37,835 bases of DNA, taken from NCBI GenBank assembly GCA_020631485.1, contig JAHDHC010000013.1, forward strand, positions 1 to 37,835, read 5' to 3'. Within the stretch, counting starts at the first letter, position 1; each line of letters starts with the position of its first letter. Positions 14,602-24,054 of this stretch are shown one piece after another. The position numbers and the translations under genes are program-made. Origin of the DNA: Candidatus Altimarinota bacterium (lineage in GTDB: Bacteria > Patescibacteriota > Gracilibacteria > BD1-5 > UBA6164). Under the pieces are notes generated by a model that was not told where the DNA came from, searched no databases, and saw only the letters and a program-made list of their open reading frames with translations.

Positions 14602-14612
14602 AATTTTAATCA

Positions 14613-14630
14613 CACCCCCCTAGGAGTCGG
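14613..14630 (+). other. Possible att site: degenerate copy of the tRNA-Trp 3' end
   Basis: This stretch and the tRNA-Trp 3' segment (23983-24001) run in the same direction and share CACCCCC, CTAGGA and TCG, about 16 of 19 positions with one gap. Direct repeats of a tRNA 3' end commonly flank elements integrated into tRNA genes. The match is short and diverged, so this is a candidate only. Confidence 0.35.
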
Positions 14631-14808
14631 TCTCCATTACAGTGCGATACTCGCACAGTAATTCTTGACCCCTCGGTCATTGCTCTTATTCATCGCAATG
14701 AGTTTCTCACTTACGCTCCGCGTAGATGAGAAACCAAAGCCTCGATTCAATTCCTTGCAACAAGGTAAAAACAAAAAAACTATTCTCTCGAATAGTCGTT
14801 TTGTTTTT
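14623..14808. repeat. Cluster of six consecutive hairpins
   Basis: In under 200 bases there are stems GGAG/CTCC (14623-14635), GTGCGA/TCGCAC (14642-14656), GACC/GGTC (14667-14678), CATTGC/GCAATG (14678-14700), GTTTCTCA/TGAGAAAC with an inner ACGC/GCGT (14702-14734), and ACTATT/AATAGT (14779-14796, the second copy of the 12663 element). The block is more GC-rich than its surroundings. No protein frame explains it. It may be a structured RNA, a recombination site, or stacked palindromic repeats. Confidence 0.5.
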
Positions 14809-15543: not shown

Positions 15544-15571
15544 TTGACTTATAGTAAAATATTATTATAAA
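15544..15571 (+). promoter_or_regulatory. Probable sigma-70-type promoter for dapD
   Basis: TTGACT at 15544-15549 and TATAAA at 15566-15571 are separated by 16 bases, in AT-rich DNA typical of the host rather than of dapD itself. A strong ribosome-binding site (GGAGGT, 15607-15612) lies just before the ATG at 15619. Confidence 0.55.
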
Positions 15572-15618
15572 ATATAAACTCAATTCCGAGTAAATATGCA
15601 AACAAATGGAGGTAGACT

Positions 15619-16689
15619 ATGTCTATTTTTGCAGCTGGTCTGGGCTTACAGACAACAGATGGTAACGGCAATGTTTTGGAAGTTTACTTCCATAAAGCAT
15701 TCGTCAGAACCGAGCAAAATGCAAGTGCAGTCGACGATTTCGTAAAAATCGCTGGTTGGTTCTATTCGGGTGGCAATAAAACCATCTGCTTGGCTCCATA
15801 CCAAATCGATAAACTGATCGAAGCGTTTTCCGAACACACTGGTACGGTGACTTTCCTTGAAGGTGCACGCGATGCACACGAACGGATGGTCGTGACAATT
15901 CTTGAAACCGATGAAGCTCCTCAAAGTGTCGCTGAAGCGTACTTGAAGCTGACCTTACTTTCAAGCCGTGCTATACAACCACACGGGCAATCACTTGATG
16001 GGATCTTCGCTGTTTTACCAAATGTTGCATGGACAAACGAAGGTGTTGTTTCGCTGGATGAACTTCCAGCTCGACAGCTTTCTGCTCGTGCTAATGGTGG
16101 AGTACTTCATGTATATGCCGTGGACAAATTCCCTCCAATGGCTGATCATGTTGTTCCAAGTGGTGTTCGTATCGGTGATGCTTCTCGTGTCCGCTTCGGT
16201 GCACATCTCGGTGAAGGTACAACCGTGATGCATGAAGGTTTTGTGAACTTCAATGCTGGCACCAAAGGTGCTGGTATGATTGAAGGACGCATCTCCGCTG
16301 GTGTAATGGTTGGTGCAAACTCTGACCTTGGTGGAGGATGTTCAACAATGGGAACGCTCTCAGGCGGAAACAATGTTGTCATCTCTGTAGGCGAAGAATG
16401 CCTCATCGGTGCAAACGCAGGTACTGGAATCCCACTGGGTGACCGTTGCACCATTGAAGCTGGTCTCTATCTGACGGCTGGAAGCAAAGTGAGCATCCTC
16501 GATGAAAATGGGGTTGAAACATCGAACGTGAAAGCTTCTGAACTTGCTGGAAAGTCGGATCTTCTGTTCCGTCGCAACTCGCAATCTGGTAAGATCGAGT
16601 GTGTAACAAATAAGACCGCTATCCAGTTGAATGAAGAACTGCACGCAAACAACTGACAAACTCAATCCACCTGTAAAAAGGTGCCGTAA
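15619..16689 (+). CDS. dapD: 2,3,4,5-tetrahydropyridine-2,6-dicarboxylate N-succinyltransferase, foreign-looking, ends at TGA
   Basis: DapD transfers succinyl from succinyl-CoA to tetrahydrodipicolinate in lysine/diaminopimelate synthesis. The frame to the TGA at 16654-16656 is 345 residues, the length of Pseudomonas-type DapD. It shows LPNVAWTNEG, GVRIGDASRVRFG, GEGTTVMHEGFVNFNAGT, SDLGGGCSTMGTLSGG and FRRNSQSGKIEC, then an ending close to LNEALHAHN of Pseudomonas. The C-terminal half is a left-handed beta-helix hexapeptide fold. About 40 glycines are present and none is TGA. Base composition is much richer in GC than the neighbours. Under code 25 the TGA is read through, adding 11 residues after its glycine to the TAA at 16687-16689, the end given here. 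No other dap gene is in the window. Recent transfer from a standard-code proteobacterium is the simplest reading. Confidence 0.9.
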
Positions 16690-16720
16690 GGCGTAAGTGA
16701 AAGAGATAGTCTAGTAATCA

Positions 16721-16750
16721 AGGCTCCCAGGGAAACCTGGGGGCTTTTAG
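16721..16750 (+). terminator. Terminator after dapD
   Basis: GGCTCCCAGG (16722-16731) pairs with CCTGGGGGCT (16736-16745) around a GAAA loop, followed by TTTT. It is GC-rich like dapD and may have arrived with it. Confidence 0.8.
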
Positions 16751-17498: not shown

Positions 17499-20400
17499 CT
17501 ATTCCTTATAATATTTATCATATATATCTTTATATTCTTTTAGTCACATCTCCAGTCCTTTCTCAAATATCATATTACAAATAGGACAATTCTTTCCATC
17601 GTATTTTTCATACATGATAGCAAGTAAGTCCTCTATATGTGTAAATGAGTGAACCTGAAAAACTTTATCAGTTCATTCAACTTGAAGCTTGATAAGAAGT
17701 TTTATCTGATCTACGACCTTCTCTCAATCCTTATCAAGTACTCTCTTCAAATATTCATTTATTTGTCAGTATACTCCAACATTTCTAGATTTCTCAATTA
17801 GTTTCTGGAATATTTCATTCTTATAGAGAATATCAAAATCTTCTATAAAGATGTTCTCTTTATAGAAAATAAAGCTGAGCCTATAATAAATACTCATATC
17901 TTCTTCTTTTGAAGAGTCTTTATAATTATCAAGGATATAATTTACTACATCTAATTTATCTTGTAACACTTTTGGAGCTGAGACTATTCCCCTCTGAACT
18001 CAAAAACAAAATCATAACATTGCTTGATGAGATCCTATCTTTCAACCAATAATGTTATATAAAATATCTAAGTAATCTTTGATTCCTTCTTTCTTAGCAC
18101 TATTGATTCATGAGAGTATCACATTTGATAACATTGTTCAGGCTTTATTCTGTATATCTTTATCTTCTGATGCAAGTAATCATTTCAAAAGCTTTATAAA
18201 TAATTCCTTACTATCAACATATCATAATTTAGGTAGAAACCATTCGACTATTGCTTTATCAATAGTCTTATTCCTACTATGGATGTGTTTTTTCAGAATA
18301 GATGTAGTAATTCTTTTATTGTTTTTTTGAAATAAAGATGCTTTCGAAATCAAAGTAGCTTGGATACCAAATAACTTATCATTTGATAGTTCCATGATTC
18401 TCTTCTTGAGATCCTCATCATCTGGATAGTAATATAATAAAATGGAACAAGTAATAGTTCCTAAACCCCTTACTGTATTGAGTCATAAAACCAGTCAGTC
18501 ATTATCTGAATCTTCCGTTGGATCCATACTGCTTGCAAGATCTAACACTATTCATTTGACTCACTCATATACAGAAGAGTCCTCTTTTTGTATTTCTGGA
18601 GTGAATTCTCTTCATAGAAACTCAGCGTCATCCAAAATCCTTCAAATTTCAAGTTTTGTATTTGAATCATTATCTTTCAATACAGAATATATATCTACTA
18701 ATTCTCTATAGAATGTTATATCTATCGAATCTTTATATTTCTCTTTAGAGTATTCAATAAATCACTTTACAACAAGACTAGCAAATATATATGAATCTTC
18801 TCACTTAGACGAAATATAAAGATATACATCTTTTATTTGATCTAAGTTATTCTTGAAATATCAAGAAACAATACTGCCATAATCATATAAATCCCAACCT
18901 CGTTCTTTTCATAAAACTATATCACATTTTTTATAAATTTCTGCTAAAGTTTCTCTCTTACTCAAAGTAATAAGCATGGGTTCGGCACGTCCAGTCCATG
19001 AACTCACTTCTACACTTGGCTTAGATCTAAAAGAAATTTTATATCCATCATGAGATTCTAAAAACTCGGATATTACTTTTTCTCATTCTTCTGAAAGTCT
19101 ATCCTTAGGTATGGTAGAAAGTAAATAAGCTTGGTGATACTCATGGGATTTTATTTCTTTGTCATTCACTACAAAATCCTGAAATTCTTCGATATAATCA
19201 CCTTCCTTAGAAAACATATAACTGAATATTGTTACCCCCCACCTTTCTTGGAATATATTTATGAATGGGTAGATTTCTTTTTTTTGAACTAGAGCACGAA
19301 TCAAATCTAGGTTTTGTTCTTTATTATCAACTAATGCGAAACTAATGAGTTCATAGAAAACAGAATAATCCCCTCTTTCAATAATATAACTTACAACTTC
19401 TATGAAAAAATCCCTATTTTTTGTATTTTTTCAAGCCTTTATAAGTTCTTGTCACATTGTTACAAACACATTTTCTTGTAAATTATGCCTCTTACGCCCA
19501 GAAGATAAAGTTACTTCTGGAAATGAGTAATATCCGATATAATTTATTGAATTTATTTGTTGTAAAGTTCTCTTTGAGCTAGAATAGCTATCATTTTCAT
19601 ATACCAATTTTATAAGCTTTCAGAAGTAATGAAAAGTAAGCTTATAATCAATATACAGTATTTTTCAGAAAATATCTGGAAGGTATTTTTCTTCTCGAAT
19701 ACTAGCATTTATACTAATAAGTTCATTTGATTGACTTCCCTCAAAATCAAATAAATTCATAATGCTTTCGACTTGTCATTGATCAAAGTGATCAATATTT
19801 TTTGATAAAAATTCAACTATAAATTCATGTGCCATATTTTTGCCTCTTTGTACAATCTTAGATACTAGATCTAACATCAAAGATGTATCAAAAGATTTGA
19901 AAGACTTTTGAGCTAAAAGTATAGCTACTCTTCTAAATAAAAACTCATACTCTGTTTTATCTAAGGCTGTATTGAATATACTAAGTATGACATCAGTATT
20001 TTTTCATCAAACATACTTTTCAAAATAATTAACAATAGATAGTAAATTTTGATCATCAGCATTATTTTCAATAATAATATACACTAGATTATCAATAATT
20101 TCTTGAAGTATACTAGTATTTAGTTTTCATAACTTATCAAAAAAATGAAGAATGTAGCTTGAATTCTGAGAAATATTCTCGTAAAACTTCTTAGATTCTT
20201 TAGGAGTTAGATCTTGTTTCTTGATTCTCTCTATGTTTTTGATAATGTAAGCATATACATCTGAAAAGCTATCAAAATCGTAAAGAAATGCTGAAATATC
20301 AACCACCTTCTTCTGACCTCACGATATTTCTTCTAAAATACTACTAATTGCAGGATCTTTTGAAAGAAGATCTAAATATTCTTTTGATATTTCTACAGAC

Positions 20401-21137
20401 TTAGTTCATTTTTCTTTCAACACCTCTGTTGATATCTCTAGTTTATCAGTTGTACTTACTTCTGATTTTATTATATTTTGAAAATTTGAATCTTTTATAA
20501 ACTCATCTTTATGTTCTTTTATAACCTCTAACATGATCTTGTAATCATCTTTTATAGCTTCTTTTATCAGCTTATAGTTATCCTTTCTTAGTTGAAATCA
20601 TATAAAACTATCAAATATTGGAGAAAATTCATCTAAAACTTTTTTTATTTTCTTGATCTCATCAATTGGCTTAGATTCAATTTTTTTCAACAATTCATCA
20701 AATGTAATAATGTCCTCTTTTGTAAAGTTGAATCCATCTGTTCATATTGTATGAGAGTATTTTTTCTTTATTTTATGGGAAGAACTTATAAATAAAAATT
20801 TGAGATGGGGATATTTGTTAGGCAATAAATCAACTCATTCAAGTGAGTAACCTTTTTTATATGTCTTTATGGTTTCTCTTATGTGATTTGTTGAGTCATC
20901 GACTGTAACCTGTACTCAAATTCATTTTTCATTTCAAAGGTCTATACCTGGAAAATTAGTTGAAAATTTCTCATTTAGGTCTTCTAATTCCCAATCGTAT
21001 ATCACGTTCAAAATATGCAATCAAAAATCTTCCCATTTTTCAAATTTATCAGAATATTTCATCTTTTTTACTAATTCATGCTTCAATACCAAAGAAAGCA
21101 ATATATCAGTAACTTCTCTAATCAATGATTCTTTCAT
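17499..21137 (-). CDS. Large SMEK-like / helical-repeat protein, candidate defence protein
   Basis: 1212 residues in one frame when TGA is Gly; dozens of TGA codons interrupt it otherwise. The first 110 residues resemble the SMEK domain. An N-terminal helix is followed by WELEDLNEKFSTNFPGIDLG and then GVQVTVDDS, with Asp66 and Gln76-Val-Thr78 in a D-x9-QxT arrangement like divergent PD-(D/E)xK nuclease cores. The remaining 1000 residues are mostly amphipathic helices of HEAT/ARM character, rich in Lys, Glu, Ile and Leu, ending near a CPIC motif. Large proteins with a small nuclease-like head and a helical-repeat body are frequent in defence islands. The nearby MerR-like regulator and recombinase fit a mobile setting. 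Nuclease activity is inference. The start is the ATG at 21137. Confidence 0.75.
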
Positions 21138-22181: not shown

Positions 22182-22325
22182 ATGAAAAGCTTATGAGAAT
22201 ATAGGAAACTATTCAAAGCAAAATGACTTGAAATCTCACAAGAAGAAATTCAAGCAATCATCGAAAGAATCGATGAAATCGGTAACCTTTTATTTGATAA
22301 ATATATAGAGAAAAATGGAAAGTAA
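22182..22325 (+). CDS. Small protein translationally coupled to recombinase
   Basis: 47 residues (MKSLGEYRKLFKAKGLEISQ, ending in KYIEKNGK), amphipathic helical, with two TGA glycines. Its last 11 bases overlap the recombinase start, a typical coupling arrangement. It could be an accessory factor for the recombinase. No family is recognised. Confidence 0.6.
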
Positions 22326-23994
22326 AAAAACTGCAGTTATTTATACCCGCGTTTCTTCAACGAAACAAAAAAAAGAGGGTGATAGCTTGAGAAATCAGGA
22401 AAAACTCTGCCGAGAATATTGTTCAAAAAATAATATGATCGTGAAAAAAGTATTTGAAGACGACTTCACATGAACAGGAACCTCTAGACCAGGATTAGAT
22501 ACAATGTATAAATATATACAACAAAATCCTGGAATTCATTTTTGTATAATAAAAAGTATTGATCGAGGATCACGTGGTGGTGTCGGTGTATATGAAGACA
22601 TAAAATCAACTCTTGAGGAAAACTGAGTACTTCTTCGTGATACTTATTGAGTCATTCAATGAAAAGAAAAAATTCTTGATAAAATAGGGAGTCTAGAACT
22701 TGATTATAAATTTTGCTATAGCGATCCATCAAGAATGAACCAGGTCATAACTGCTATCAGCTCAGAGGAAGAAAGAATGCAAATATTGCGTCGAACAATA
22801 CCACGTGAAATTGAGCTTGAGCAACAAGGATACCATGTAAGGGAATCAAATTTCTGATATAAACTTCTAAAAGTAGATGCTGAAAGATGAAAGGCAAAAA
22901 TTCAGATTCCTCACCCTATAGAATGAGCATGGATTATAAAGGCTTTTGAATTGAAAGCTCTGTGAGGATATTCAAGTGATGAGATAGCAGAAGAGCTCAA
23001 TATATTGGGAGCAGAAACGAGACGAAAGAACTCCATTAGTTGAAAATATCTTGATACATTATTCGTAAAACCAATATACGCAGGTTTCATAGTTTCTAAA
23101 TGGACAAATCAAGAAATAATTCGAGCTCAATATCAAGGGCTTGTAAGTATAGAGTTATGGAATAAAGTAAATAAAGGTAAGCGTAGAATAGTAGAGAAAA
23201 ATGATGGAAGTGTTGAATTGATAGAATACAAAAAACAAAAAAATGAAGAATGAAAGGTAGTTCAGAAGAGAAGAAAGAAATTCGATACAAAGCTTCCTTA
23301 TAGAAACTTGATAAAGTCATCTCAGAGACCAGAAAAACTTATTTCTTGAAGCATTAGTAATACTAAAAGAAATAAACCTACAGCATACTATCATGTGATT
23401 CGAAAGAAATGAGAGAAAGGAGAAAATATTAGAAAGCAAGAATTCCATGATATGATCGAATCATTCTTTTGAGAACTTCAGATACACCCAGTACTTAGAA
23501 TACTATTTGAAGATAAATTTGATGAGATCTTTGAAGGTAATAGAGCTAAAATCAACTCTAAGCTCAAACAACTCAAAGACAGAAAAATCAAGATTACAAA
23601 AGAAATAAAACAGATAGAAGATAAGATCTATAGTTTCGATACTATAATGATGAGAACTATAAAGATTTTTGAAAAGAAGTTATGCGAATTAGAAAAAGAA
23701 GTTAGTAAGATTGAACAAAGTATTTGAGAATGTGAAGGGTCAGATTTTATCAAACCAGAGAAATTCAAGGAGTTTTGTTTTAGTGTTCTCGAACATCTAG
23801 GAGAGTTCTTGAAGCAAAGCCAATCCTTGGAAGAATTATCATTGATATTCCAGTTTGTATTCAAGGAAACACCTGAGTACAACGACATAGTTAATCGAAC
23901 ATCACCCTTACAACCAATATTCGCTCTACAAAGCAAAAAAGAACCTCAAATAATTTGAAGTTCTTCTGTAAATCGTAAATGGCACCCCCACTAG
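22315..23994 (+). CDS. Large serine recombinase / integrase
   Basis: 559 residues. The catalytic domain opens with AVIYTRVSS, placing the nucleophile at Ser14 with Arg12 beside it. EDDFTGTGTSRPGLDTM and KSIDRGSRGG (near residue 82) follow, as in the resolvase/invertase fold. A recombinase domain follows (GYSSDEIAEELNILGAETRR, KPIYAGFIVSKW). The zinc-ribbon region is present in outline (LPYRNLIKSSQ to TAYYHVIRKKGEK) but its usual cysteines are absent. A long coiled coil (KINSKLKQLKDRKIKITKEI) precedes the C-terminus. About 18 TGA codons read as Gly, so it is long adapted to this code. The last five codons and the TAG stop lie inside the 3' half of tRNA-Trp, as expected when an element inserts into a tRNA gene. 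Confidence 0.9.
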
Positions 23995-24054
23995 GAATCG
24001 AACCTAGAGCGCAGGATTTGGAGTCCTGAATTTTAGCCGTTAAACTATGGAGGT
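23980..24054 (-). tRNA. tRNA-Trp (CCA anticodon)
   Basis: Read on the minus strand: acceptor ACCTCCA pairs with TGGGGGT (one G-U pair). The D arm includes GTTTAACGGCTAAAAT. The anticodon stem CAGGA/TCCTG holds the loop CTCCAAA, giving anticodon CCA. The T arm is CTAGG-TTCGAAT-CCTAG. The 3' CCA is encoded. This reads UGG only, so it fits a code in which UGA is not Trp. The 3' end abuts and overlaps the recombinase gene. Confidence 0.9.

Follow-up and report, generated by a model that had tools for sequence, protein, structure and literature searches.

A probably captured standard-code dapD gene with predicted read-through of its old UGA stop in a UGA-glycine genome

We analysed a 37,835-nucleotide stretch of DNA (hereafter, the window) from a Candidatus Altimarinota bacterium (assembly GCA_020631485.1, contig JAHDHC010000013.1), in which translation with code 25 gives an open reading frame of 356 amino acids at positions 15619–16689 that contains one in-frame TGA. 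The part of the frame preceding this TGA, a 345-residue coding sequence on the forward strand (15619–16653), was assigned to the dapD family by its matches to the DapD_gpp model (TIGR03536) and to Pseudomonas aeruginosa DapD. DapD_gpp is the best match and spans almost the full length of the protein (493.7 bits, E = 2.1e-148, residues 4–345), although the score lies below the curated equivalog cut-off of 518.45 bits, so the protein is not filed as an equivalog. The gathering scores of the Pfam models THDPS_M (55.5, cut-off 25) and Hexapep_2 (53.2, cut-off 27) are passed, and THDPS_N (24.5) falls slightly below its cut-off of 25. P. aeruginosa DapD (3r5a) aligns with residues 2–345 in phmmer (E = 5e-117), and the structures 3r5a–3r5d are the top Foldseek matches for a query model of moderate confidence. 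These matches place the protein, as judged by its sequence, in the broad tetrahydrodipicolinate N-succinyltransferase family.

A Shine–Dalgarno-like GGAGGT (15608–15613, forward strand), read from the sequence, stands 5 nt before the ATG. Further upstream, in AT-rich, host-like DNA, lies a weak promoter-like site, TTGACT-18-TAAAAT (15544–15573, forward strand; 10 of 12 matches); promoter-like sites upstream of dapD showed no excess over shuffled sequences. Elsewhere in the window, the end of a gene for a large serine recombinase (22315–24054) overlaps the 3′ end of tRNA-Trp (23980–24054), and a SMEK-domain protein is encoded beside it (17499–21137). This region has the look of a variable island that extends in the direction of dapD; a search for its att repeat beside tRNA-Trp found none. 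Positions 14610–14800 are non-coding and GC-rich and contain short inverted repeats; they match no Rfam family.

The dapD body contains 42 glycine codons (24 GGT, 9 GGA, 6 GGC and 3 GGG), none of which is TGA. By contrast, TGA makes up 47.9% of the 17,213 glycine codons in 811 open reading frames of at least 100 amino acids from the window's genome, as counted in 947,557 bases that represent 78% of that genome, the remaining 22% being unscanned. At this rate, the probability of finding no TGA among 42 codons is 1.3e-12, and only 4 of 299 sampled frames with at least 20 glycine codons have at most one TGA. The GC content of dapD is 47.6%, compared with 34.1% for the sampled genome and 31% for the flanks of the gene. 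Synonymous codon usage, with glycine left out, is less host-like than that of 177 of 184 host genes. An earlier, sequence-only reading of this DNA had remarked on the lack of TGA among about 40 glycines and on a GC content far above that of the neighbours, and had asked for a codon-usage test; both remarks are borne out by the counts, and the test finds the codons foreign. Two further causes of zero UGA were considered and rejected: a fold constraint is ruled out because TGA occurs inside the repeat in other hexapeptide proteins of these genomes, and, as regards high expression, the EF-Tu-like, EF-G and S1 genes keep 13–17% TGA.

The TGA itself (codon 346; 16654–16656, forward strand) stands at what appears to be the stop of the donor gene. 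When aligned with the encoded protein, 15 relatives all end at or just before its residue 345, and none extends past it. When the RF2 model was run against the window's genome, which is 93% complete, its sole match was RF1 and RF2 was not found; therefore, UGA should not terminate translation, and loss of RF2 is likely rather than certain. Read-through is predicted to add Gly346 and QTQSTCKKVP (16657–16689, forward strand, by code-25 translation), 11 residues in all, before the TAA at 16687–16689. The tail has a pLDDT below 50 in a structure model of moderate confidence. A scan of roughly 340 kb for tRNAs did not reveal the glycine tRNA that reads UGA. An intrinsic terminator-like hairpin of 12 pairs, 7 of them G–C, follows at 16720–16747 (forward strand). 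A TGA-free body, a TGA at the end of the family and an in-frame TAA thereafter together mark dapD as a putative stop-codon mismatch. The sequence-only reading had proposed such a mismatch after transfer, with TGA at the family's usual end; the 15 relatives, the UGA-free body and the finding of RF1 without an RF2 match all support this proposal, and its tail of 11 residues after the glycine is corrected to 11 including the glycine (Gly346 plus 10).

Among the matches listed, the closest DapD is encoded by a lone dapD gene of Candidatus Gracilibacteria 28_42_T64 (CP042461.1; 64% identity), followed by those of Neptunomonas and Marinobacterium (Oceanospirillaceae; 60%) and of many Pseudomonas (55–58%); no standard-code relative above 60% identity was among the matches listed for species genomes. 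In a tree of 35 proteins, which was limited to one DapD type, an all-type tree having saturated long branches, the window and 28_42_T64 proteins form a clade (support 100/99.9). This pair is sister to Neptunomonas and Marinobacterium (95/83), within gammaproteobacterial DapD, and the branches that separate its two members are long (0.65 and 0.57). The dapD gene of 28_42_T64 has TGA at 0 of 42 glycine codons, compared with 58.7% in its own genome. Its GC3 of 0.18 is close to the genome mean of 0.19, the gammaproteobacterial copies sampled have a GC3 of at least 0.37, and its arginine codons are still foreign. The publication on 28_42_T64 says nothing of dap genes in its main text (PMC6851277). 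The proposed origin in a standard-code bacterium is thus supported by the absence of UGA, the foreign codons and the gammaproteobacterial placement, whereas the Pseudomonas-like donor of the earlier reading gives way to a gracilibacterium and then Oceanospirillaceae as the closest among the matches listed. An origin of dapD from a phage or plasmid was also considered and rejected, no close relative having been found among viral contigs, phages and plasmids.

DapD matches were obtained in 10 of 353 genomes of the class, the window's included; in a phylum-wide sample of 379 genomes, the window's genome gave the only match. Eight of the ten are full-length dapD-family genes outside a dap cluster, and all eight have TGA-free bodies. 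At the rate of the neighbouring genes, the probability of this absence is at most 5e-11 for five of the eight; AT-rich third positions (GC3 0.15–0.29) are likewise found in five. The copy in genome G038, which is GC-rich and sparing in its use of TGA, is a weak case; its locus (G038:C24:5000-24999, L263) belongs to a code-25 relative with a GC content of about 50–55% and few TGA, which is unusual in the class. The sequence-only reading had named gracilibacterial homologues with TGA glycines as evidence that would count against it; homologues were looked for and found, and all are TGA-free. Several DapD types are represented: a P. aeruginosa-like type in the window and 28_42_T64, a Campylobacter-like type in G015 (E = 4e-140 to 2rij) and in G019, which groups with G015, and other types among the remaining lone copies. 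Three of the eight genes end in TGA (those of the window, G001 and G038), with a 17-codon extension beyond the TGA in G001 and a frame that continues past the TGA through a terminator hairpin in G038. The other two of the ten matches differ in kind: that in G129 lies inside a dapA–dapD cluster with hardly any TGA, perhaps in a standard-code relative, and that in G121 is similar to DapD in the N-terminal domain alone. The G121 protein (L091:1480-1908) has 143 residues encoded without TGA; its tail is basic, and it lacks the catalytic domain.

No match to dapA or dapF was found in the window's genome or in the single-contig genome of 28_42_T64, and neither gene was found in G001, G019, G015, G125 or G038; in G022, dapF is present with 19 TGA and dapA was not found. 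Because dapA and dapF are missing from most of these genomes, DapD stands alone there, in agreement with the isolated dap gene described earlier for the window, and the gene content of the window's genome does not appear to make up a working succinylase branch of the DAP pathway. Given the lack of both genes, our guess is that the substrate, tetrahydrodipicolinate or a related amino acid, would probably be drawn from a host or prey cell. That DapD recurs on its own suggests an as yet unexplained need in these bacteria.

Further genes with the same signature were identified by open reading frame and family searches. On contig C18 of the window's genome, a pyrD-like gene (L311:7191-8231, reverse strand) has 33 GGN codons and no TGA within its body, and ends in TGA with a predicted six-residue tail, GNGRFC; pyrC (L311:6152-7276, reverse strand) has 21 GGN codons, is likewise TGA-free and ends in TGA with a predicted eight-residue tail, GCKKRGNR. 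The two frames overlap as in an operon and, independently of dapD, represent the putative second and third stop-codon mismatches of this genome. The adjoining pyrE and pyrF on contig C6 (L229:5656-7042) are TGA-free and end in TAA and TAG. In the 28_42_T64 genome, an antiporter-like gene (L242:13389-14636; G017:C1 273389-274636) has TGA at 0 of 40 glycine codons and ends in TGA followed by two more codons, ACA TAA. The natural case of stop-codon mismatch proposed for dapD therefore stands as a mismatch but not as a single one, since other dapD-like genes and pyr genes show it as well. Among PyrC genes in 31 class genomes, resident copies of the window's family mostly contain 4–13 TGA and others 0–1; retained foreign genes thus gain UGA, and the TGA-free ones are therefore probably young. 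Two other genes of the window's genome were noted: a subtilase-like secreted protein of 618 amino acids (L311:9467-11323, C18) with TGA at 0 of 55 glycine codons and a GC3 of 0.20, host-like or lower, and a membrane protein of 393 amino acids and no known family (L309:64-1245, C16) with 38 glycine codons and no TGA.

We consider it highly probable that a standard-code dapD was recently captured into a UGA-glycine genome and is read through at its old stop, and this is the best explanation of the locus. A DapD-type tetrahydrodipicolinate N-succinyltransferase gene would have come from a standard-code donor, probably related to Oceanospirillaceae-type gammaproteobacteria. Because such a donor used UGA as a stop only, the body of the gene would be UGA-free and translate correctly; captured standard-code genes would be translatable at once, with only their end wrong. 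The ribosome would place glycine at the old stop and terminate 11 residues later. As the next TAA precedes the terminator, the messenger would keep a stop and the protein would gain a short loose tail, the product probably being a functional enzyme. An equal process would have brought pyrC and the pyrD-like gene, and probably pyrE and pyrF, into the window's genome, and repeated recent capture of standard-code genes is the best explanation across these genomes. A single very recent transfer does not explain the deep split inferred between the window and 28_42_T64 proteins; it would be accounted for by more than one transfer out of a single donor clade that is absent from the sample. The host-like GC3 of the 28_42_T64 gene, with its lack of TGA, is compatible both with an AT-rich donor outside the sample and with selection against UGA.

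Selection of this kind, the main alternative, could also mean that the DapD genes are long-term residents kept UGA-free, for example, either to remain readable in both codes, when carried by elements or exchanged between an epibiont and a standard-code host, or to allow their synthesis during a shortage of the UGA-reading tRNA. The eight TGA-free lone genes, five of them AT-rich at third positions, the seemingly composition-adapted but UGA-free dapD of 28_42_T64 and the proposal that UGA-avoiding phages work in both codes (PMC10746230) are consistent with this explanation. However, the variety of DapD types, some of them typical of other phyla (the Campylobacter type of 2rij), argues for captures on separate occasions, a terminal TGA kept by three DapD genes should be costly in a UGA-glycine cell, and genes of unrelated function bear an equal signature. 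We therefore regard long-term residence as unlikely.

The TGA of the window gene is enclosed by the stem GAC(AAA)CTC ... GAG(ATA)GTC of a structured 3′ element (16651–16713, forward strand) that is common to the DapD-like gene of G001. In both genes, AACTGACAAACTC stands at the stop; a variable hairpin, AGAGATAGTC and a similar terminator follow in that order. Their 3′ ends form equal nested stems, interrupted by an AAA/AUA internal loop, that hold the TGA in or beside the outer stem (fold z, computed with the terminator included, of −2.75 in the window and −7.2 in G001). An exact pattern and a two-sequence covariance model gave confident matches only in the window and G001 among the 353 class genomes, and none was found in 57 dapD-bearing or related loci, gammaproteobacterial dapD loci included. 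A viral pattern scan returned 120 stretches; a pattern this short is unspecific in so large a collection. The idea that the element forms a wide family was rejected, because four further class matches (E = 0.035–0.07) look like chance; an integron attC, a CRISPR and a known riboswitch were likewise rejected, with no Rfam family at threshold and no attC-like core discernible by eye. With two examples, the element may be functional, or it may represent the 3′ end of a type of donor common to both genes. If functional, it could make UGA a partial stop or regulated switch that yields two protein forms, a reading suggested by the conservation of the two motifs between proteins of 33% identity and by the restriction of the element to these genes in the class. 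Nevertheless, the UGA-reading factor, RF2, was not found, the examples number two and the element may simply be the donor 3′ end followed by the donor terminator, so that we consider such a switch quite unlikely. A combined scheme, in which a small dual-code gene set of Gracilibacteria, with DapD as a recurrent member, is selected to be UGA-free and hence readable in both the epibiont and its standard-code host, and the UGA-bearing 3′ structure gives a short or tailed form according to the code, would be very doubtful. An assembly chimera or contamination is extremely improbable: the draft genome consists of 27 contigs and no more than about 1.2 kb is foreign, but on either side of it, within the same contig, the DNA is in the host code and uses TGA for glycine, a lone TGA-free dapD occurs in the single-contig 28_42_T64 genome, and the 3′ element is found again in a second, independent genome.

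Recent capture with read-through thus yields named, intact genes in which read-through is expected: dapD, pyrC and the pyrD-like gene in the window's genome, and, in others, the antiporter-like gene of 28_42_T64 and the DapD-like genes of G001 and G038. Each would give one defined tail peptide that can be searched for by proteomics. The UGA content of foreign genes in code-25 genomes might further serve as a rough clock, zero on arrival and many later, as PyrC suggests. In the literature searched, which covered few subscription papers, we found no description of chromosomal genes that have kept a UGA stop.

Several known systems can be compared with the window gene. It resembles P. aeruginosa-type DapD (TIGR03536; 3r5a–3r5d) in length, domains, C-terminus and invariant motifs, such as TTVMHEGFVNFNAGT and MIEGRISAGV, and differs in its predicted extra tail, its sub-cut-off score and a genome without dapA and dapF. 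The 28_42_T64 gene is likewise a lone dapD with 42 TGA-free glycine codons in a code-25 genome; unlike the window gene, it ends in TAA, has the low GC3 of its genome and lacks the 3′ element. In the parts of the Vampirococcus study considered here (PMC8080830), 126 transferred genes are described for this member of the Absconditabacteria, and UGA recoding is argued to be a barrier to gene exchange or a shield that spoils foreign genes through read-through. Those foreign genes also lie in a UGA-glycine genome and read-through of UGA stops is argued there too; in contrast to the present case, those parts contain no example of a gene that has kept its UGA stop. Gracilibacteria phages without UGA, proposed to function in both codes (PMC10746230), resemble the genes described here in lacking in-frame TGA and in being fit for both codes. 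These code-11-compatible phages use mostly other stops, whereas here TGA is the last codon of metabolic genes that lie in the chromosome.
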